Shown: positions 8,365 to 52,036 of the stretch, one piece after another
Layout of the letters: every line of letters starts with the position of its first letter
How positions within the stretch are numbered: position 1 is the first letter of the stretch
Source of the DNA: Bradyrhizobium sp. 200
GTDB lineage: Bacteria > Pseudomonadota > Alphaproteobacteria > Rhizobiales > Xanthobacteraceae
Reading direction: 5' to 3'
Length of the DNA: 64,000 nt
Assembly: GCF_023100945.1 (NCBI RefSeq)
Contig: NZ_CP064689.1
Location: 2,524,001-2,588,000, forward strand
The notes under the pieces: model-generated
The model's database searches: none
Told to the model about the DNA's origin: nothing
What the model saw: the letters and a program-made list of their open reading frames with translations, nothing else
Translations under genes and position numbers: made by a program

Positions 8365-9558
8365 ATGCGCGCGTCTTACCTGTTCACCAGCGAGTCGGTC
8401 TCGGAGGGTCATCCCGATAAGGTCTGCGACCGAATTTCCGACGAGATCGTCGACCTGTTCTACCGGGAAGGGCCGAAGGCGGGCATCGATCCGTGGGCGA
8501 TCCGCGCGGCCTGCGAAACGCTTGCGACCACAAACAAGGTCGTGATCGCCGGTGAGACTCGTGGTCCGGAGTCGGTCACCAACGAGCAGATCGAAAGCGT
8601 GGTGCGCGAGGCCATCAAGGACATTGGCTACGAGCAGGATGGCTTCCACTGGAAGACCGCCGACATCGAAATTCTGCTGCATCCGCAGTCCGCTGACATC
8701 GCGCAGGGCGTCGACGCCAAGCAGCCCAGCAATCAGGAAGAGGGCGCAGGCGACCAGGGCATCATGTTCGGTTACGCCACCAACGAGACGCCCGATCTGA
8801 TGCCGGCGCCGATTTTCTACGCCCACAAGATCCTGCGTTTGATTTCCGAAGCACGCCACTCCGGCCGCGAGAAGGTGCTGGGTCCGGACTCCAAGAGCCA
8901 GGTCACCGTGCAGTACGAGAACGGCAAGCCGGTCGGCGTCCGCGAGATCGTGGTCTCGCATCAGCATCTGGTCGAGGACCTGACCTCCAATCAGATTCGC
9001 GACATCGTCGAGCCCTATGTCCGCGAGGCGCTGCCGAAGGACTGGATCAACGGCAAGACCATCTGGCACATCAATCCGACCGGCAAGTTCTACATCGGTG
9101 GTCCCGACGGCGACGCCGGCCTGACCGGTCGCAAGATCATCGTCGACACCTATGGTGGCGCAGCCCCGCATGGCGGCGGTGCGTTCTCCGGCAAGGACCC
9201 GACCAAGGTCGACCGTTCCGCGGCCTATGCCGCTCGTTATGTCGCCAAGAACATCGTCGCGGCCGGTCTCGCCGACCGCTGCACGCTGCAGCTTGCTTAC
9301 GCGATCGGCGTGGCGCGGCCGCTGTCGATCTATATCGACACCCACGGTACCGGGAAGGTGTCGGAAGACGAACTCGAGAAGGCCGCCGCGCGGGCGATGG
9401 ATTTGACGCCGCGCGGCATCCGCAGCCATCTCGACCTCAACCGGCCGATCTACGCGCGCACCTCGGCCTACGGCCATTTCGGCCGCACGCCCGACAATGA
9501 AGGCGGCTTCTCCTGGGAGAAGACCGATCTGGTCGAACCGCTCAAGCGTGCGGTCTGA
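8365..9558 (+). CDS. metK: S-adenosylmethionine synthetase
   Basis: A 397-residue cytoplasmic enzyme that makes SAM from methionine and ATP. It opens with [18 protein letters not shown], the methionine/ATP-binding start of MetK, and carries the hexapeptide region [12 protein letters not shown] and the P-loop-like [16 protein letters not shown]. The ATG at 8365 has a GAGGGG ribosome site at 8351-8356; the TTG at 8362 is a less likely start. It is followed by a strong hairpin and then ahcY, so synthesis and recycling of SAM are neighbours. No SAM riboswitch could be recognised in the 60 nt upstream. Confidence 0.97.
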
Positions 9559-9577
9559 CTTTCTCCGTAATCGTCTC

Positions 9578-9619
9578 GCGTATTCCGGAAAGCTGAATGC
9601 TTTTCGGAATACGCTTTTT
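9578..9619 (+). terminator. Rho-independent terminator/attenuator between metK and ahcY
   Basis: The arms GCGTATTCCG (9578-9587) and CGGAATACGC (9605-9614) are perfectly complementary and followed by TTTTT. It lies in the 75-nt gap, leaving only about 15 nt before the ahcY start. Either ahcY depends on read-through or its promoter overlaps this hairpin. Confidence 0.85.
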
Positions 9620-9633
9620 AAGGGATCAACCGC

Positions 9634-11064
<1,431 letters not shown>

Positions 11065-12901: not shown

Positions 12902-13054
12902 ATGGACGCCCAGCGAATTGCCGTCGATGCCATCGTGGCGCTGACCGATTGCGACCGCGAGGCCGCCGCCGCCTTCATCCGCAAGTTCTATCTGGCCGGC
13001 GTCCGCGACCCGAAGCGGCTGACCTTCAAGGGCCTGCAGGCGCTGCGGAGCTGA
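12902..13054 (+). CDS. Small conserved-looking protein, 50 residues
   Basis: An ATG at 12902 with a GAGGA ribosome site at 12892-12896 opens a 50-residue frame ending in TGA at 13052-13054. The protein starts MDAQRIAVDAIVALTD and ends LTFKGLQALRS. It looks like a compact helical domain with no signal peptide. Codon use is normal for the genome, with G/C in third positions. I do not recognise a function. The clear ribosome site and the CtrA-type box upstream support expression; cell-cycle control would be an inference. Confidence 0.65.
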   Translation: MDAQRIAVDAIVALTDCDREAAAAFIRKFYLAGVRDPKRLTFKGLQALRS

Positions 13055-13123
13055 AGCTGGGGCCTCTTCAGTTTTCCGATTCAATTTAGCGAACCTGTTC
13101 AGTTGTGGGCATGGATGTCTCAA

Positions 13124-13201
13124 CGTCATTGCGAGCGCAGCGAAGCAATCCATAGCGCCGCAAGCGGAAAGGTGGATTGCTTCGCTGCGCTCGCAATGAC
13201 G
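13124..13201. repeat. Palindromic repeat, CGTCATTGCGAGC family
   Basis: CGTCATTGCGAGCGCAGCGA and its reverse complement at the other end form a long stem around a short central loop. The same family recurs at 52758-52843. It is next to the longer repeat at 13257-13702, and the two form one composite unit. Confidence 0.85.
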
Positions 13202-13256
13202 GTGGATACAGTTTCGCGATCTCGCAGCGCATTGCGCCCGAGGTTTGATCTTCGTT

Positions 13257-13702
13257 GCCCTCTTCGAAATCAGAGGGCGCAGGGAAGACCGGGTGCTGGC
13301 TGCACCCGCGGTCTCGCGTGCGATTTGCGCAAACAAAACTGCACACGAGCATACAGGGCAGCGGGAGCATTCCGGCCTTCCCTGCGCAATGGCTTTACGG
13401 CTTACTTCGTGCTCTTCCCGGTGAACGGCTTTCTTGCCACCGTCGCTCCTGAGAAGCTTGCTTCTCAAAGAACTTGGCGCCAGCACCGCGGCGTCAGAAC
13501 CACACGACTTCGCCGTACGCATCCGGCGCGTACGTCTAGCGCCATCCGCGTCCATCGCATCTCACTGCGCGTTCGTGACGATCGCGAGCGCCCCTCATCC
13601 GCGGTGAGACGGACGGAGTTATGCCGGTGATTTGCGTGAGAACGAAAGCGGAATATTTTTGCGGAAAGGGCTGGACAGGTTTTGGCTGATTTGCCCGTCG
13701 TG
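13257..13702 (+). repeat. Dispersed non-coding repeat, copy 1
   Basis: About 445 nt that reappears, diverged and inverted, at 52111-52688. Shared landmarks include the start at the GCCCTC/GAGGGC stem, GGTCTCG followed by a CACACGAGCAT stretch, CGCAATGGCTTTACGGCTTA, a CACACG block near 13500 and TTCGTGACGAT. It gives open frames on both strands, but these look like spurious coding since the two copies do not share a frame. It fills most of the gene-free 13055-13791 gap; the remainder (13703-13791) shows nothing recognisable. Confidence 0.85.
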
Positions 13703-13791
13703 TTGATTTGTCGCAGGCGCTGCATGAAGCTTACGCTTGTGCGCAAGGCAAATCAGATCGCCGGGTGGCCTAGGGTAACTACGGGGCGTGG

Positions 13792-15747
13792 CTAGATCAT
13801 CACATCGTCGAGCCTGTTTAGCCACCGCGTTCGCCGGGTCGACTCAAGCCCGCCATGTGCATCGAAACGGCGGATGGCCGAGAAATCGAGGCCGGTCTCA
13901 TCCTCTATCGTACGCACCGTGGTCTGTATTTTTCGGCTTCGCAGGTCGTCCGGCCGATAGGGACGCAGCCCCGAAAATACCTTCGCTTCATACAAAGCCT
14001 TCACGTACTGAGTTTGTCCCAAAATGAAGGCGGCGACCGCGATGGTGCCGGGCTTCTTCTCAAGAACCGCGATCTTCCAGTAGCTGAGTGGTATCCTCCA
14101 AGGCCCGTCTTCTCGATCTTTCCCATACCAGGGATCATCGTCTCGAAAGATCGGTCCTTGAAAGACACTCATCTTTTTTTCGGAGGCTTGCGCCTTGTCG
14201 AGGAGGTAATCCTCCAGGTTACCCCAGTCGACATCATTGTACTTTTGGAACTGGGGCGCGGCATTGGAGTAGTGGAATGTATCTTGGTCACCTTGCTTTG
14301 CTATACCTACGGACGTGCCCCAGCTTGGATCAAACCGACGAACAAGGTGACCCCGGCTGAATTGAATCTTATCGCTGCCACGGTCTTTTTCGTAAAAGTT
14401 TCCGGCGGGCTGATACTTGGCATCCATGCGAGCGTCGACCCGCCAAACCGTTTGCCGCGCGCCAGGGTGCTGCAACTGGGCGCCGTTGATGTTCACGGCC
14501 GTGACCAGCGCAAATTTTCGCTTGGCATGAATCACCACCGAATAGCGATGATAGGCGAGTTCATGGCCTGATCCCTTCAACAGGGGAGCAAGCAAGCCCT
14601 GGGATTTAGCTTCTGCGTAGATATGGCTGAGCGGGATCCGCTCGGATAAGAAACTATCATCGTAACCAATTGCGGCGCCTTTTTTCCATCGCGTTGTGGG
14701 GTAGGGCTTTGCATCCTTCTCGTAGAAGTCCTCTACCAGCGCTCCTCCACCGTTCTCAACCCTCTGGAATCCAAGGCCAGCCTCGAGGCGCTCGAGTACG
14801 CTTGCGGCTTGAGGATTGGTAAATCGCTGCGTCTCGAGTGAATCGTAGATTGAGCTGATGCGAACACCCTCGTTCGCAAGCCATTCGGTTGGGCCGGCTG
14901 CGTTCTTTTTACGTGGCATCGGCACGGCCTTGTGGTGCAGGGCAACGACCTGCCACTGGTCATTGAGGACGGGGGAGCCCGAAGAGCCTGGCTCGGTGTC
15001 GGTCAGGTAGTAGACAAAGTGCTCGGAGGCAGTGGCAGGCACCGTTCCCTTTGGCAAAGTGACGATCATGTTGGAACGGATCGATATCTGTTTCGGGCCG
15101 CCGTTGGGATGCTGAATTATGGTAACCCATTCCTTGTCTATCGCTTTTCCTGAAGGAGGCAGCAGGGGCAGCCAACCAAAACGTTCGATGGGTGTGCCGC
15201 CGTCGGAAAGTGGTGATACAGCCACGAACGACACGTCGAGTTCGGGGCTTGTGAAGAACACTTCGTGGGGTCGCAGATTGAACTGAACAGGACGTTGCAG
15301 CACGCCATCGACATCATGTTCGAAACAAAACTCTGCTTCGGCTTGGCTTGCGTCATCGGGCGTACCAAGCACATGGTGATTGGTCATGAGAAGGCGCGGC
15401 GCCACTAAAAATGCTGTGCCATACCACTCCCCACCGTCGGCTGGAGCTCGAATGCGACACACAGCGGCGGCCGCCCGCCGACCTCGATCGAGATAATTGA
15501 TCGAAGTGAGGTCGCTTTCGCCAATAATACGTTCAAAGCCGGTCGGGTCATTGTCCCGGGATTCAACCAGATCCCTGCGCACTGCGACGCGCGCTTCATC
15601 GTCAGTTGGACGAAGGCGCTTTCCAGAAGTACGCGCGGACGCGACTTTGCGCGAGACCACCATTAGCGCCTTGACAAGCGCTTCGTTCGTGGTCGCAACC
15701 ACGTCCGGCCGTCCATCATTCTTTGCGGAGGTTGATTGCAATGCCAT
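13792..15747 (-). CDS. Trypsin-like protease fused to DNA/RNA non-specific endonuclease
   Basis: A 651-residue two-enzyme fusion. Residues 85-290 are a trypsin/V8-like serine protease with H125 in LLMTNHHVLG, D171 in LDVSFVAV and S256 in EPGSSGSPV. Residues 375-600 are a NUC1/endonuclease G-type nuclease with H467 in SRGHLVRR (Ser replaces the usual Asp of DRGH) and the metal-site region SNAAPQFQKYNDVDWGNLE, N504 being the likely ligand. No signal peptide or membrane helix is seen. The start is fixed by AAGGAG 5 nt upstream of ATG 15747; a longer frame begins at 15819. GC is visibly lower than its neighbours and a repeat patch lies downstream, both signs of transfer. Fusions of this kind are plausible defence or cell-suicide effectors, but no function is proven. 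Confidence 0.85.
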   Translation of the reverse strand: MALQSTSAKNDGRPDVVATTNEALVKALMVVSRKVASARTSGKRLRPTDDEARVAVRRDLVESRDNDPTGFERIIGESDLTSINYLDRGRRAAAAVCRIRAPADGGEWYGTAFLVAPRLLMTNHHVLGTPDDASQAEAEFCFEHDVDGVLQRPVQFNLRPHEVFFTSPELDVSFVAVSPLSDGGTPIERFGWLPLLPPSGKAIDKEWVTIIQHPNGGPKQISIRSNMIVTLPKGTVPATASEHFVYYLTDTEPGSSGSPVLNDQWQVVALHHKAVPMPRKKNAAGPTEWLANEGVRISSIYDSLETQRFTNPQAASVLERLEAGLGFQRVENGGGALVEDFYEKDAKPYPTTRWKKGAAIGYDDSFLSERIPLSHIYAEAKSQGLLAPLLKGSGHELAYHRYSVVIHAKRKFALVTAVNINGAQLQHPGARQTVWRVDARMDAKYQPAGNFYEKDRGSDKIQFSRGHLVRRFDPSWGTSVGIAKQGDQDTFHYSNAAPQFQKYNDVDWGNLEDYLLDKAQASEKKMSVFQGPIFRDDDPWYGKDREDGPWRIPLSYWKIAVLEKKPGTIAVAAFILGQTQYVKALYEAKVFSGLRPYRPDDLRSRKIQTTVRTIEDETGLDFSAIRRFDAHGGLESTRRTRWLNRLDDVMI

Positions 15748-15881
15748 TGGGACTCCTTCAAAACTGGAGATCGTCAGTCCATCACGGGCCGACGCAATAG
15801 CTCTTTTTGAAATGCACAATCCAACAGAAACCAGGAGAATAGCGAATAGATTGGCAATTGCAATCCCCGCGTGTTGAGGCT

Positions 15882-15937
15882 GCTCTGTCGGTTAGCGCTG
15901 AAAGCCGGGCCGCAAAGCGGCCCGGCTTTGACAGAGC
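15882..15937. terminator. Nested palindrome, possible bidirectional hairpin
   Basis: The inner arms AAAGCCGGGCCGC / GCGGCCCGGCTTT (15901-15929) are perfect around a 3-nt loop. The outer arms GCTCTGTC / GACAGAGC (15882-15889, 15930-15937) extend it. It lies between the ABC exporter stop and the protease-nuclease start, so it probably separates the two transcripts. Confidence 0.65.
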
Positions 15938-15985
15938 GCACCGTGGCTCAGCGAAAGCGCAGCCTTCGTGCGACTGAGGCTTCGG

Positions 15986-17752
15986 TCACAACGAAGCCCC
16001 TTCCAGGGAACGTGCATAGTCGGACCACAGCGAGGCGTACTCCGGCACGGTCTTGACGAGCTGCTCGTGCGGGCCGTCGCCGACGAGACGGCCAGCCTCA
16101 AGCACCAGGATGCGATCGGCGCTGCGCGTCGCGGCGAGATGGTGCGAGACGAGGATCAGCAGACGGTCTCGCCCCCAGACGGCAAGCCGTTTCTCCAGCG
16201 CCACTGCCGCTTCGGCATCGAGGAACGCCGTCGGCTCATCGAACAGCGCAAGCTTCGGATTGCGCACGACGGCCCTGGCGATGGACAGGCGCTGACGCTG
16301 CCCGCCGGACAGCGAGCGACCGCCCTCGCTCAGTTCGGCCTCAGTGCCATCAGGCAAGGCCTCGACAAAACCCAGCGCATCCGAGAAACCCAGGGCCTCA
16401 CGCAACGCGGCATCGTCGGCATCCGGGCCGGGCGCAAGATTCTCCCGCACCGTCCCTGAAAACAGCGCCGTGTCCTGATCGACCACGCCGATCCTGCCGC
16501 GCAGCCAGCGCGGGTCATAATGCCTGAGGTCGTGACCGAACACGTCAACCCGGCCGGAGTAATCGCCGAGCAATCCGAGCAGGATCCGGATCAGGGTCGA
16601 CTTGCCCGAACCGTTGCGGCCGACAAGCGCGACGACGCCGTGCGACGGCAACGCAACGCTGACATCGTGCAGCGCCGGCCGGTTCGCTCCGGGATAAGTC
16701 AGCGACACATTCGACAGCACGATGCCTCCGGCCGCAAATGCACGGACGGGAGGCGTGATGGTCGCCTGCTCCCGCGGCTCGGAGACGAACTGGGCGATCC
16801 GGCCGACAGCCACGTCCGCCTCCTGATAGGTCCTGTAGACATCTCCGGCAGCGAGGATCGGTCCGGTGATCCGGCCGGCGAGCAACTGCAGCGCCAGCAG
16901 TTCGCCGACGGTGAGATTTCCCTGAAACATGCGCCAGCAGCCGAGCCCGACCACTAGCAAGGTGAGGCCGCGCGAGACGACCTGCGACCTGAGGATGAAA
17001 GCGCGGTTGATATCCATCAGATGACAGAGCTTGTCGAGCATCGCGCCGGTGATGCGGTCCCATCGGCGCATACGGCCGCCTTCGAGCGCCAGCGCCTTGA
17101 TGGTCGAAATGCCGTTGACGCTCTCGGACAGAACATTCTGCCGCGCGCCGATGCTGGCGTAATAGTCATCCACGACAAGCCGGAGCGCGCCCAGATGCTC
17201 GCGCGTGAGCATGGCCAGCAGCGGGGTGACCACCAGCAAGGTCAGCCCGACGACGAGGTCGTAATAGAACATCAGGCCCAGCGCGACGATGGCGCCGCCG
17301 GTATCGAAGACGACATGCGGCAGATGATAAAGGACGAAATCGCGGACCTTTGTTGCCTGCTGAAAATGATTGAGCACGTCGCCGGAGCGGAAATCCGCGC
17401 CGTCGATGCGCGCGCGCATGAGATGCGCGAACACCTTGCGCGACACGCGCCGGTCGATGAAGGCGACAAGCCGGATCACCAGCTTCTGACGCCAGGACGC
17501 AACCGCCGCCTCAAGCCCGACGGCGGCGACCGCGGTCAGCGCGAGGCCCGCGAGCGCCCAGTCCGCCCGTCCCGCCACGATCGCATCAACCGCCTTCTGC
17601 GTACTGACGGGAAAGACGAGACCCGCGACGTACACTGCGCCCGTCATCGCAAGGATCGACGCGACCTGCTCGCGGCGCAGCAGCAGCATGTGCCCGATCC
17701 AGCGCCAGCCAAAAGACGACGGCTGGCCTGCCGGTTGAAGCCGATCGTGCAT
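15986..17752 (-). CDS. ABC exporter, type I secretion-like (fused membrane and ATPase domains)
   Basis: About 588 residues. The membrane domain occupies residues 25-300 and includes FPVSTQKAVDAIV, in the style of HlyB/LapB-type exporters but without an N-terminal C39 peptidase-like domain. The ATPase domain follows: Walker A LVGRNGSGKST, signature LSGGQRQRLSIARA, Walker B LALFDEPTAFLD and the switch His in ILVSHHLA. No HlyD-like adaptor or RTX substrate is adjacent. The start at 17752 removes a 39-residue extension of doubtful coding value; the exact start is uncertain. It lies upstream of the protease-nuclease gene on the same strand, separated by 238 nt and a palindrome. Confidence 0.82.
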   Translation of the reverse strand: MHDRLQPAGQPSSFGWRWIGHMLLLRREQVASILAMTGAVYVAGLVFPVSTQKAVDAIVAGRADWALAGLALTAVAAVGLEAAVASWRQKLVIRLVAFIDRRVSRKVFAHLMRARIDGADFRSGDVLNHFQQATKVRDFVLYHLPHVVFDTGGAIVALGLMFYYDLVVGLTLLVVTPLLAMLTREHLGALRLVVDDYYASIGARQNVLSESVNGISTIKALALEGGRMRRWDRITGAMLDKLCHLMDINRAFILRSQVVSRGLTLLVVGLGCWRMFQGNLTVGELLALQLLAGRITGPILAAGDVYRTYQEADVAVGRIAQFVSEPREQATITPPVRAFAAGGIVLSNVSLTYPGANRPALHDVSVALPSHGVVALVGRNGSGKSTLIRILLGLLGDYSGRVDVFGHDLRHYDPRWLRGRIGVVDQDTALFSGTVRENLAPGPDADDAALREALGFSDALGFVEALPDGTEAELSEGGRSLSGGQRQRLSIARAVVRNPKLALFDEPTAFLDAEAAVALEKRLAVWGRDRLLILVSHHLAATRSADRILVLEAGRLVGDGPHEQLVKTVPEYASLWSDYARSLEGASL

Positions 17753-18015
17753 GGATGAAGACCCCAGGGAAAAGCCGAGCCAGAAACAGCTTCGCTCCGG
17801 CAACATTATGGCCGATGCCGGCATTGGGCATTTGTCAGATATCGCGTGATGTCGGCAAGTAGCCCGCATGAGCCACCGGGTCGCGCGAAGGCGCGCCCGA
17901 CGACGAGCGCAATTGCACTCGCGAAGTGATGACAGGCTCCGCGATATGCGGGACCAAGACCAACCCAGAGCGTCCCGGATGCTGGCGGGCGCAATAGGCG
18001 CGCGCCTGTGAAATC

Positions 18016-18041
18016 GGCGGGTTACGCTTCGCTAACCCGCC
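18016..18041. terminator. Hairpin downstream of the EthD gene
   Basis: GGCGGGTTA / TAACCCGCC stem around CGCTTCGC, 27 nt past the EthD gene stop. It has no T-run. The rest of the 17753-18067 gap shows no gene; the 120 nt next to the exporter must hold its promoter. Confidence 0.55.
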
Positions 18042-18067
18042 TACGTATCGAGTCGGGAACTCCGCGA

Positions 18068-18382
18068 TCAGCCGACGACGACCTCACTGATCTGAATGAC
18101 CGGAGACTGGTCGGTGTAGTTCGGGATGTCGGCCATGATCTCCTTGGCGTGAGGCCCGAAGCCGGCCTGGAACGCTTCGACCGAGTCGCAGAAGATATGA
18201 CACATTCCGACATAGGTGGCGGGAGCGCCGGGTGCGCCGCCGGCCATGCCCTTGTCGACCGTGTAGGACTTGCACGCATCGCCCATCCGCGCTTTCACGA
18301 GCGGCATATGCTTGTCGCGGTAGTAGTCATGATCGAAGCGCCCGCCGGGTGTGTTGGGATACATTACGCTTACCTTGATCAT
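18068..18382 (-). CDS. EthD-family protein
   Basis: A 104-residue ferredoxin-like (dimeric alpha-beta barrel) protein. It starts MIKVSVMYPN and carries FDHDYYRDKHMPLV, the diagnostic EthD motif, with the conserved HMPL His. EthD was named from the ETBE degradation locus of Rhodococcus; most homologues have unknown roles or act as small monooxygenase- or isomerase-like folds. It lies downstream of the SDR gene on the same strand, 153 nt away, so it may share its transcript. Confidence 0.88.
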   Translation of the reverse strand: MIKVSVMYPNTPGGRFDHDYYRDKHMPLVKARMGDACKSYTVDKGMAGGAPGAPATYVGMCHIFCDSVEAFQAGFGPHAKEIMADIPNYTDQSPVIQISEVVVG

Positions 18383-49397: not shown

Positions 49398-50198
49398 ATG
49401 ACGACGCCGATTGCGCTCACCATCGCCGGCTCCGATTCCTCTGGCGGCGCCGGCATCCAGGCCGACCTCAAGACGTTTGCCGCACTCGGCGTCTACGGCG
49501 CTTCCGTGATCACGGCGCTGACCGCGCAGAACACCACGGGCGTCAGCGGCATCCACCAGGTGCCGGCTGAGTTCGTCACCGCGCAGATCGATGCGGTGTT
49601 TTCCGATCTCGCGATCGGTGCGGTCAAGATCGGCATGGTGGCGCATCCGCCTGTCATCGATGCCATTGTCACGGGGCTCAAGCGCTGGTCGCCGAAGCAT
49701 GTCGTGCTCGATCCCGTGATGGTCGCAACCTCGGGCGACCGGCTGCTCGCGACCGAAGCCGTCGACGCGCTGCGGACCAAACTCCTTCCGTTGGCGTCGG
49801 TGATCACGCCGAACTTGCCGGAAGCCGCAGCGCTGCTCGACGAAGGCGTGGCGGCGGACGAAGCTGCCGTCGAGAAGCAAGGCAGGCGATTGCTGGCCCT
49901 GGGTTGCAAGGCGGTGCTGATCAAGGGCGGCCACGGGGAGGGCGCCGAGAGCATCGACTATCTGATCGATTCCTCCGGCGTCACCGCGCTCGCCGCGCCA
50001 CGCATCGCCACCAAAAACACCCACGGCACCGGCTGCTCGCTCTCCTCGGCGATTGCCGCCGGCCTGGCGAAGGGCGAGGGCATGGAAATCGCGGTGCGCA
50101 ACGCCAAGGCCTGGGTCAGCGCGGCGATTGCTGCCGCAGACCGCTTCAGCGTCGGGCACGGCCACGGCCCGATCCATCATTTTCATAGATTTTACTAG
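49398..50198 (+). CDS. thiD: Hydroxymethylpyrimidine (phosphate) kinase
   Basis: A 266-residue ribokinase-family enzyme. The substrate loop is [18 protein letters not shown] near the N-terminus, and the anion-hole/Mg region is [20 protein letters not shown] near residue 215. It phosphorylates HMP and HMP-P in thiamine synthesis. The ATG 49398 has a weak GACGAG site; an upstream in-frame extension is ignored. No other thi gene or thiamine riboswitch was seen here. Confidence 0.95.
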
Positions 50199-50410
50199 CC
50201 GCCGTCCTGCGGGCGTCTTGTAGCCCGGATGAGCGAAGAGCGACATCTGGGGTTTTGGCTATCGCCCATATCGCTGCACTCATGCGAACTATTAGCTAAC
50301 GAGCTATTAGCCAAGAAACGTCGCATTCGACGGCCGACGGTAAGGACCCACATTACGGGACAGTGCACTCAATAGACGTATCGCGCCTTCGCGAGCATCA
50401 CAGGCGAGTT

Positions 50411-50599
50411 AAGGGGTGCAGTCCAGCACTGTCACCGTAATTCCGTACAACGGAGCGGGGGCCTGAGTTCAATGGAAAGGGGCTAGGCGGACGGGGATGG
50501 ATTTTGGAGGCGAGAATGGCGGGTTTGGGCGCGGGACAGCCGATCACAGAAATTAGCGTGTCTCATTCAAGGGGTGCAGTCCAGGGTGTCACCGTAATA
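50411..50599. repeat. Direct repeats of a GGGGTGCAGTCCAG motif
   Basis: AAGGGGTGCAGTCCAG followed by TGTCACCGTAAT occurs at about 50411-50440 and again at 50570-50599; a further relic GGGTGTCATCGTAAT lies at 50610. These may be decayed ends of a mobile element. The remainder of 50199-50630 holds a CGGATGAGCGA motif and nothing coding. Confidence 0.6.
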
Positions 50600-50630
50600 G
50601 CCGGCTAATGGGTGTCATCGTAATACAATG

Positions 50631-50870
50631 TCAGTTCTCGTAATACACGATTGTGCTGTATATCGGAGAGGCGACCCATAAATCGTATTTTGAATCAAAA
50701 TCCAGTACAGCTTCCACTTCAAATTCGCCCTCCATATAAAGAAGAACGTGGGTGCCTGCGGCAATCTTGTCTTTCGAGTTTTGTATCTCATTCTTTGAGC
50801 GCGGAAGATTCAGACGAACTCTATGGAGTTCGTCTTTATTGTTAAAATCGCCGTAGATCTTGGGGAGCAT
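50631..50870 (-). CDS. Small AT-rich protein, candidate immunity protein
   Basis: A 79-residue frame from ATG 50870 to TGA at 50631. It is mildly acidic overall, with strand-rich stretches such as HVLLYMEGEFEVEAVLDFDS, and has no signal peptide. GC is clearly lower than the genome. It begins 10 nt downstream of the toxin-like frame on the same strand, the usual order for toxin and immunity genes. I do not recognise a family, so the role is inferred from position and composition only. Confidence 0.5.
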   Translation of the reverse strand: MLPKIYGDFNNKDELHRVRLNLPRSKNEIQNSKDKIAAGTHVLLYMEGEFEVEAVLDFDSKYDLWVASPIYSTIVYYEN

Positions 50871-50880
50871 GGCTTGTTCT

Positions 50881-51189
50881 TTACCATCTCGGCGTGGGGA
50901 ATGGGTTGGTTTGCGGCCTAAAAACTCCGCTGATTGCCAACGCCAAATCGGGAGGTAGTGGGCTCGGCACCTGTACCGTTGCATGATAACCCGCGCCTGG
51001 GCTAGGCACAACGGGAACTCCTAGCCCCACTAGTTCGGCTGTGGTGGTGACACTAATTTGCTTATTCGGAAAAGCACCTGCTTGCGCAAGTTCATTGATT
51101 CCCTTTCCAGGTGCAGATTGAACCGAGAACCCATATAAGCCAGGGACCGCCCTATGCTCGTCGGAGCCCGCGATCAGCTGGTCTGGCAA
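50881..51189 (-). CDS. Truncated secreted-toxin-like C-terminal fragment
   Basis: A 102-codon frame with TTG as its only possible start (a stop lies just upstream at 51202). It reads PGLYGFSVQSAPGKGINELA, then ISVTTTAELVGLGVPVVPSP and GAGYHATVQVPSPLPPDLAL. This style is like the C-terminal region of polymorphic toxins or effectors, so it may be the tail of a larger gene cut at the junction with the phage gene. No full-length parent is present. The TTG start makes independent expression doubtful. Confidence 0.45.
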   Translation of the reverse strand: MPDQLIAGSDEHRAVPGLYGFSVQSAPGKGINELAQAGAFPNKQISVTTTAELVGLGVPVVPSPGAGYHATVQVPSPLPPDLALAISGVFRPQTNPFPTPRW

Positions 51190-51196
51190 GACGGTG

Positions 51197-52036
51197 ATGA
51201 TCTATACACCCTATGTCGGCAACCAGCTTCCGATCTATAACGGTACCGGTATGGTGCCGACCACATTCGCCGAGCTTTCCATAGCGATCGCAGACACTTC
51301 GAAAAATCCCTCAGCCATCGGGGCGAATAAAATCAACGATTGGTTCGTCTGGAACGATAGTGGGACGATCAGGCTCTCACACGGACCGGATTGGACCAGC
51401 GACACGGCCAGGTCAGCAGGCACCGCGCTCACCAGGGTCAATGGAGTACTGTTGAACAGCGTCGCAATCACCAACGGCCCGGCTGCCTCGCGCGGAACGT
51501 ATGTCGGCACAACCCGAAGCAACGGATCATCGCAACTTGATTGGATCTTCGGCGCGTCCGCAGCCGGTGGCACTGCCGCATTCTTCGGCGTCTGGAATAT
51601 GCACAATCGCGTAGATGTCGATACGACTGTAACCGATAGCACGCCGTCATGGTCCACTGCTACCAGTGCGACACCTGCCGCACTCAATACTGGCGGAACG
51701 GGTAGCGGTCTCAACAATCGAGTTAGTGCCGTTTTCGGCTTGGCCGAAGACGGCATACGCATTTCATTCGGAGCAAGAATGGCAGGTTCCGGTGTGGCAT
51801 TTGCCGGCGTTGATGCAGGCTTCGCCATGGACGCAACCAACGCCTTCGATAAGGTGGCCCATTCTCAGTCAACAAGTGGCGGCGCCGCCATCGTTATATC
51901 ATGCGTGACCGAAAAAGCGTACGAGCCACAACTCGGGTTTCATTTTTGGCAGGCCACCCAAGCTGGAGATGGAACAAACGCAGGCGCCATCGCAGGCGGT
52001 GTTTTTCAGGGTCTTTCGGGTAATTTGAGGATGTAA
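51197..52036 (+). CDS. Phage structural-like protein, N-terminally truncated
   Basis: A 279-residue frame. It opens MIYTPYVGNQLPIYNGTGM and continues with VWNDSGTIRLSHGPDWTSDT, PAASRGTYVGTTRSNGSSQL and WNMHNRVDVDTT, a pattern I recognise from tail or collar proteins in prophages of Rhizobiales. Full-length relatives carry a further N-terminal stretch before the TPYVGNQ segment, which is missing here. GC is slightly low. No other phage gene lies nearby, so this is a residual fragment, possibly still open but without a partner. Confidence 0.6.
   Translation: MIYTPYVGNQLPIYNGTGMVPTTFAELSIAIADTSKNPSAIGANKINDWFVWNDSGTIRLSHGPDWTSDTARSAGTALTRVNGVLLNSVAITNGPAASRGTYVGTTRSNGSSQLDWIFGASAAGGTAAFFGVWNMHNRVDVDTTVTDSTPSWSTATSATPAALNTGGTGSGLNNRVSAVFGLAEDGIRISFGARMAGSGVAFAGVDAGFAMDATNAFDKVAHSQSTSGGAAIVISCVTEKAYEPQLGFHFWQATQAGDGTNAGAIAGGVFQGLSGNLRM

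Follow-up and report, generated by a model that had tools for sequence, protein, structure and literature searches.

A solitary protease-nuclease fusion of the NucA-trypsin type, apparently acquired by horizontal transfer, in Bradyrhizobium sp. 200

The fusion gene and its product

The window, by which we mean the whole 64,000-nucleotide stretch of Bradyrhizobium sp. 200 that was analysed (contig NZ_CP064689.1, positions 2,524,001 to 2,588,000), contains a gene whose product joins a protease to a nuclease:

13792..15747, minus strand: protease/NucA-EndoG nuclease fusion gene, with a trypsin-like protease, 651 aa
14938..15420, minus strand: Trypsin_2 protease domain, residues 110-270 (Pfam PF13365, E 2e-21, above cut-off)
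13879..14574, minus strand: Endonuclease_NS domain, residues 392-623 (Pfam PF01223, E 1.4e-37, above cut-off)

The start codon is the ATG at position 15747, which follows AAGGAG at a distance of five bases; starting from the in-frame TTG at 15819 would lengthen the product to 675 aa, but P0001, a 96% identical protein from another dataset, is 651 aa long as well. The protease part has the chymotrypsin fold and its His-Asp-Ser triad (H125, D171, S256), with D250 six residues before the Ser. The nuclease part has the fold, RGH motif and metal-binding Asn of the EndoG/NucA family (PF01223), represented by SRGH at 464-467, H467 and N504, together with E512. The original prediction, made from the DNA alone, had named the triad, SRGH, H467 and N504, all of which lie exactly where it placed them, and the Pfam search that it proposed recovers both domains. 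It had also pointed to SRGH in place of DRGH, which is no defect, since this position is Ser in 23 and Asp in 45 of 75 sequences taken from the loci of relatives (a set whose members are not independent and in which one gene, L003/L137, is present twice). A signal peptide had been predicted to be absent; in agreement, hydropathy, the only property used here, reveals no strongly hydrophobic N-terminal segment in the fusion protein or in any of the 75 sequences, and the protein is presumably cytoplasmic. The predicted drop in GC content is equally clear, with 0.561 for the gene against a window median of 0.632, which places it in the lowest 2% of stretches of equal length.

Surroundings of the gene

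Three further features flank the fusion gene:

15986..17869, minus strand: ABC transporter gene, on the same strand as the fusion gene
15901..15929, no strand: perfect 13-bp inverted repeat with a 3-nt loop, between the ABC transporter and fusion genes
13127..13198, no strand: palindromic repeat arm, dispersed; the genome has 181 exact matches to its pattern

The neighbouring genes, identified by eye, encode the ABC transporter and, upstream, a monooxygenase. The ABC transporter gene is separated from the fusion gene by 238 bp, and the inverted repeat between them is possibly a terminator, though it lacks a long T run and is outside the list from the terminator scan; the promoter and terminator scan gave no excess over shuffled sequence. 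ABC-type proteins occur within 10 kb at 10 clustered loci of relatives, where their distance from the gene varies and most lie on the opposite strand, as expected of so common a protein class. In view of this, of its GC content of 0.653 and of the intergenic hairpin, we judged the ABC transporter to be probably incidental rather than a partner. The fusion gene stands alone, as predicted, in having no adjacent partner gene. Beside the window copy we recognised no known defence gene, no gene for secretion or immunity, and none for EAD1, STAND or a second protease, and the genome holds one Endonuclease_NS gene in all.

The dispersed repeat that the original prediction noticed next to the gene does exist; its nearness means little, given the 181 matches across the genome, and as a mobility element it was set aside as uninformative. 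Many of its genomic copies are facing pairs about 46 bp apart.

Horizontal acquisition

The site was compared in 14 near-relative genomes, those whose upstream monooxygenase gene is most similar. None of the 14 loci has a match inside the fusion gene, and in 11 of them (eight short loci and those of G031, G019 and G103) the left flank is followed by the right flank without the fusion gene; in the other three (G023, G054 and G038) the right flank is not seen in the stretch compared, which leaves them undecided. The left flank ends at 13048-13756 and the right one starts at 17855-18068, so that the part without a match at the relatives' site is:

13757..17854, no strand: stretch without a match at the relatives' site

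The ABC transporter gene is missing from the same sites and may have arrived jointly with the fusion gene or in a successive event. Across 195 congeneric genomes, the close form is found in two, the window genome and G008, whose protein is 61% identical. In a tree of 33 rows these two proteins fall into different well-supported clades, and rows from Verrucomicrobiota are interleaved with rows from sphingomonads. The low GC content, the empty sites, the separate clades and this interleaving indicate that the gene was gained by horizontal transfer, and the anomalous patch of the original prediction is best described as a horizontal island.

Relation to published systems

The architecture and the idea of a conflict effector, which the original prediction put forward, had already been published: Kaur et al. 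2020 (PMC7159879) describe a NucA-trypsin "System 3", fused or operonic and mostly from alphaproteobacteria, as a predicted conflict system released through a proteolytic cascade, and the system is named again by Kaur et al. 2021 (PMC8195603). The fusion protein, which unites a NucA/Endonuclease_NS nuclease and a trypsin-like peptidase in one polypeptide, appears from its sequence to be a solitary member of System 3; the optional accessories given in the System 3 account (EAD1, STAND, a second protease in the operon) are absent beside it. The System 3 section and related passages of PMC7159879 mention no self-activation motif. Our literature search, mainly of open-access main texts, found no experimental test of a NucA-trypsin fusion.

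Protease-opened nucleases are established elsewhere. In Hachiman, AVAST, Lamassu and DRT systems, Tuck et al. 2025 (PMC12799240) showed that a pro-nuclease is opened by protease cleavage. These pairs also combine a trypsin-like protease with a nuclease, but there the protease is fused to a defence enzyme and the nuclease, of the MBL fold, is always encoded by a separate, upstream gene, whereas here an Endonuclease_NS nuclease shares the polypeptide; the terms NucA and EndoG are absent from its main text. Known EndoG, NucA and Serratia nucleases (4qn0, 2o3b, 1ql0) are not fused to a protease, are secreted or mitochondrial, and are controlled by inhibitor proteins (NuiA, EndoGI) without a protease gate. 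V8/Esp-type glutamyl endopeptidases (1qy6, 4jcn, 6q24), which cut after Glu, are secreted and carry no nuclease. Polymorphic or secreted toxins differ as well, the window copy having neither a hydrophobic N-terminus (by hydropathy only) nor a recognised adjacent immunity gene.

Family size and distribution

The family is large, with 2739 of 7996 scored candidates matching the fusion protein at E 1e-3; both Pfam domains are present in all 120 among the matches listed (of 2739). The source names of relatives are "endonuclease G", "DNA/RNA non-specific endonuclease", "peptidase" or similar. Close copies occur in Rhizobium, Tardiphaga and others, in line with the mostly alphaproteobacterial System 3. 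Relatives, from named organisms or metagenome-assembled genomes (MAGs), come from Alphaproteobacteria, Bacteroidota, Chloroflexota, Paenibacillus, Verrucomicrobiota and an archaeal MAG, and so extend to taxa beyond the published description of System 3 as mostly alphaproteobacterial. Two stretches of viral contigs matched a pattern; neither encoded a relative.

Within the genus, 54 of 195 genomes (the window genome included) match at 1e-30. Of the 52 other matching congeners, 37 have an open reading frame of 713-802 aa whose protease is 39-47% identical, and the remaining ones have shorter, split or longer versions. The commoner genus relative of about 740 aa (L138, L140-L143) has a protease about 45% and a nuclease about 37% identical to those of the fusion protein, and an amidase is among its common neighbours. 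The five loci compared for it have neighbours in common between genomes, as would be expected under vertical inheritance, and this relative may be a sister of the mobile form that has been retained vertically.

Neighbours of the relatives

Part of the family lies among genes of defence type. Within L022-L084, 61 loci have an anchor, and three of these show the order hsdS-[gene]-hsdR, namely L063 (by Pfam), L078 (by clustering) and L084 (by clustering, with two ORFs between); these are Bacteroidota-type loci, with the fusion gene inside type I restriction operons. The nearest cultured relatives have PDC-S35 TIR and ThsB-like genes (L023), or Pycsar TIR, Pycsar-type cyclase and class XII RT genes (L025), beside them, and these two are the only ones of 17 close loci pinned as defence neighbourhoods. 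At L150 (6189-9944), a caspase gene is directly followed by a version of 1252 aa, which is about 600 residues longer at its N-terminus. Other relatives are accompanied by EAD1 (twice), nSTAND1 and trypsin (L139), by a separate trypsin, a separate nuclease and a STAND/AAA match that is weak and below cut-off (L145), by CHAT, with an S1/P1 nuclease abutting according to annotation (L151), or by patatin and PLD (L152). A Tle1-like lipase occurs at L033, L079 and, by clustering, L064, and an S1/P1 nuclease gene abuts the relative at L037.

Other surroundings are of different kinds. Close copies at L028, L032, L031 and L137 stand beside genes judged by eye to be housekeeping, and on two Cupriavidus plasmids (L159 and L181) the relative is part of a type II secretion operon, with gspF on one side of it and gspG on the other (gspDEF-[gene]-gspG). 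The L159 protein has no N-terminal hydrophobic segment by hydropathy. A protein of about 1000 aa is encoded next to the fusion gene, in divergent orientation, at seven Rhizobium/Ensifer loci (L026, L029, L041, L044, L045, L148, L149); the L149 protein, the one scanned, has no Pfam match.

With PADLOC at 1e-10, the 102 ORFs around 17 close copies gave matches to 71 families, against 37 families for 100 ORFs from 17 arbitrary places, a control drawn from one genus only; 25 of the families are listed for each set. The control's GajB, RTasHel, mad3 and MzaA matches are probably housekeeping proteins, mad3 having two members in both sets. Because related models inflate the counts, the control covers one genus and the matches are loose, we do not call the difference significant; it is suggestive of defence enrichment at most. 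Ten neighbour proteins were resolved by locus, giving a mad2-like match at L024 and none at L137, L148 and L150, and the window protein itself matches weakly an RT-fused protease.

The co-occurrence with defence islands that the original prediction proposed to look for is borne out for part of the family (hsd, TIR/Pycsar/RT and caspase/CHAT/EAD1 neighbours) and not for the several members beside housekeeping genes. Relatives confined to housekeeping operons or carrying signal peptides, the outcome named there as contrary, were not what we found.

Conservation and a candidate self-cleavage motif

The catalytic residues are conserved in both halves. In the 75-sequence set, H125, D171 and S256 are present in all 75 members, H467 and N504 in 73 each and E512 in 74, and in a 141-sequence alignment (A3) H125, D171, S256 and D250 are invariant. 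This joint conservation suggests that the family keeps both activities, and the retention of both active sites across phyla, read from the alignments, is to be counted as new. Conservation extends in front of the protease strands:

15451..15579, minus strand: conserved N-terminal protease cap, residues 57-99 (R57, E72, R73, G76, D79, N84 and R98, each in 92-99% of 141 sequences)
15529..15534, minus strand: E72-R73, candidate self-cleavage site before I74-I75-G76, proposed from conservation and the V8-type position
15466..15501, minus strand: helix 83-94, proposed from the structure model and VIA alignment ranges to lie near the aligned FAM111A dimer helix

Position 72 is Glu in 74 of the 75 sequences and position 73 is Arg or Lys in 71. 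D250 presumably occupies the place of the Asp that selects Arg/Lys in trypsin, six residues before the catalytic Ser, and being invariant it would favour cutting after Arg.

Aligned with the family profile, mature V8-type chains begin to match at their residue 20, corresponding to about residue 92 of the fusion protein (by our own count, which differs from that of the tool by 2 of 635). Without gaps, and if the matched chains begin at the mature N-terminus, as we assume, the first V8-type residue would fall at about 73-74. The pro-Esp chain matches 35 residues later, as expected of a pro-form.

The structure model built from the 141 sequences (pLDDT 87.8, pTM 0.64) places E72-R73 in a confidently folded turn rather than a floppy loop, and predicts about 95 mostly helical residues before the protease strands. 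At this pTM the arrangement of the domains is not reliable, so the gating of the nuclease cannot be read from the model. An earlier model, for which 27 close sequences were used, was of poor quality, with a pLDDT of 53.7, and was set aside. By Foldseek and VIA, the modelled nuclease best matches EndoG/EXOG-type enzymes and the modelled protease best matches FAM111A; a human antiviral protease is thus the closest solved fold for this bacterial domain in the model. FAM111A is not the closest protease by sequence (8s9k, 20% identity). It has no nuclease and carries UBL and ssDNA-binding parts in front, for which the window protein has no Pfam match; with FAM111 proteases the window protein would share the protease fold only. 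In the model, FAM111A aligns from residue 73 and V347 of its dimer helix comes near residue 86 (own count).

FAM111A is described as a protease that is activated by dimerization, cleaves itself and has an antiviral function (PMC10920703, PMC9798293). In the former account its autocleavage is independent of the dimer, its specificity is chymotrypsin-like, and the protease construct begins at its own self-cleavage site. By extrapolation, the conserved E72-R73/I74-I75-G76 would lie about at the cut of V8-type zymogens and near the self-cut of FAM111A. The V8-type, FAM111A and conservation hints may thus converge on E72-R73/I74, although the motif could instead belong to a purely structural cap. 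The linker (residues ~325-350), whose cleavage the original prediction proposed as the gate, is variable in sequence and was dropped as the main conserved cleavage site; the conserved candidate precedes the protease, which disfavours that proposal.

Proposed working and alternatives

We favour, with a probability of about 55%, the reading that the gene is a solitary member of System 3, gained by horizontal transfer, and that it encodes on its own a cytoplasmic nuclease gated by the fused protease. The fusion protein would be held in a low-activity state until a trigger, phage or another stress, joins two copies through the conserved helix 83-94. Pairing would order the protease active site, which would then cut after R73 in its own or the partner copy. 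This cut would release or open the EndoG-type nuclease, and this enzyme would then degrade DNA and RNA, leading to cell death or arrest. The defence or suicide effector of the original prediction is supported by the horizontal island, both catalytic sets, the defence-type neighbours in part of the family and the published prediction of a conflict system, and is weakened by several housekeeping and secretion neighbours.

The same machine might respond to something other than phage, as a stress- or starvation-triggered death enzyme analogous to EndoG and caspase apoptosis. The caspase, CHAT and Death-type partners of relatives and the lone copies beside apparent housekeeping genes agree with such a role, whereas the patchy horizontal spread and the restriction-operon positions suit defence better, and we regard it as unlikely. 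An exported enzyme, used for rival killing or nucleic-acid feeding through type II or other secretion, would account for the gsp position on the two plasmids and for S1/P1 nuclease, PLD and lipase neighbours; since hydrophobic N-termini are missing throughout the 75 sequences, the Cupriavidus L159 protein included, and no gene for secretion or immunity was recognised next to the window copy, this seems improbable.

Still less probable is repair of protein-DNA crosslinks, with the protease removing protein and the nuclease trimming DNA, as is thought of FAM111A and EXOG separately. The best fold matches of the two modelled domains are of just these types, but EndoG-type nucleases are non-specific, no adjacent repair partner was recognised and the gene is patchy and horizontal. 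The anomalous GC content and the missing partner would also fit a decayed or silent hitch-hiker on the island, which we consider the most doubtful reading of all in view of the intact frame, the conserved residues and the copy of equal length, 96% identical, elsewhere.

Within the favoured reading of a protease-gated nuclease, a bolder and decidedly tentative version would make the polypeptide its own caspase-and-nuclease pathway, triggered by FAM111A-like dimerization, self-cut at the motif E-R/(I/L)-(I/L)-G, which is conserved across phyla, and thereby freeing the EndoG-type nuclease; one mobile gene would then provide complete suicide immunity and could slot into restriction operons or islands without partners. 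If the self-activation site is real, the protein offers a one-gene test case of a lethal nuclease tied to the switch that sets it off, with counterparts in the recently demonstrated pro-nuclease/protease pairs and, among eukaryotes, in FAM111A and EndoG. Beyond the published system, what is fresh is that the gene occurs alone and in a mobile form, that the family is so broad, that some relatives have restriction, Pycsar and RT neighbours, and that self-activation can be put as a concrete hypothesis.

Two minor observations concern other parts of the genome. A separate ORF (L162 ~8466-9746; 8.837 Mb) has a weak EAD1-like match of 23.2 bits, against a cut-off of 24.2, and a weak protease match as well. 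A further low-GC patch (0.55-0.56) lies in the window at 50001-52000 and includes a 280-aa, low-complexity ORF with the look of a phage or surface protein.
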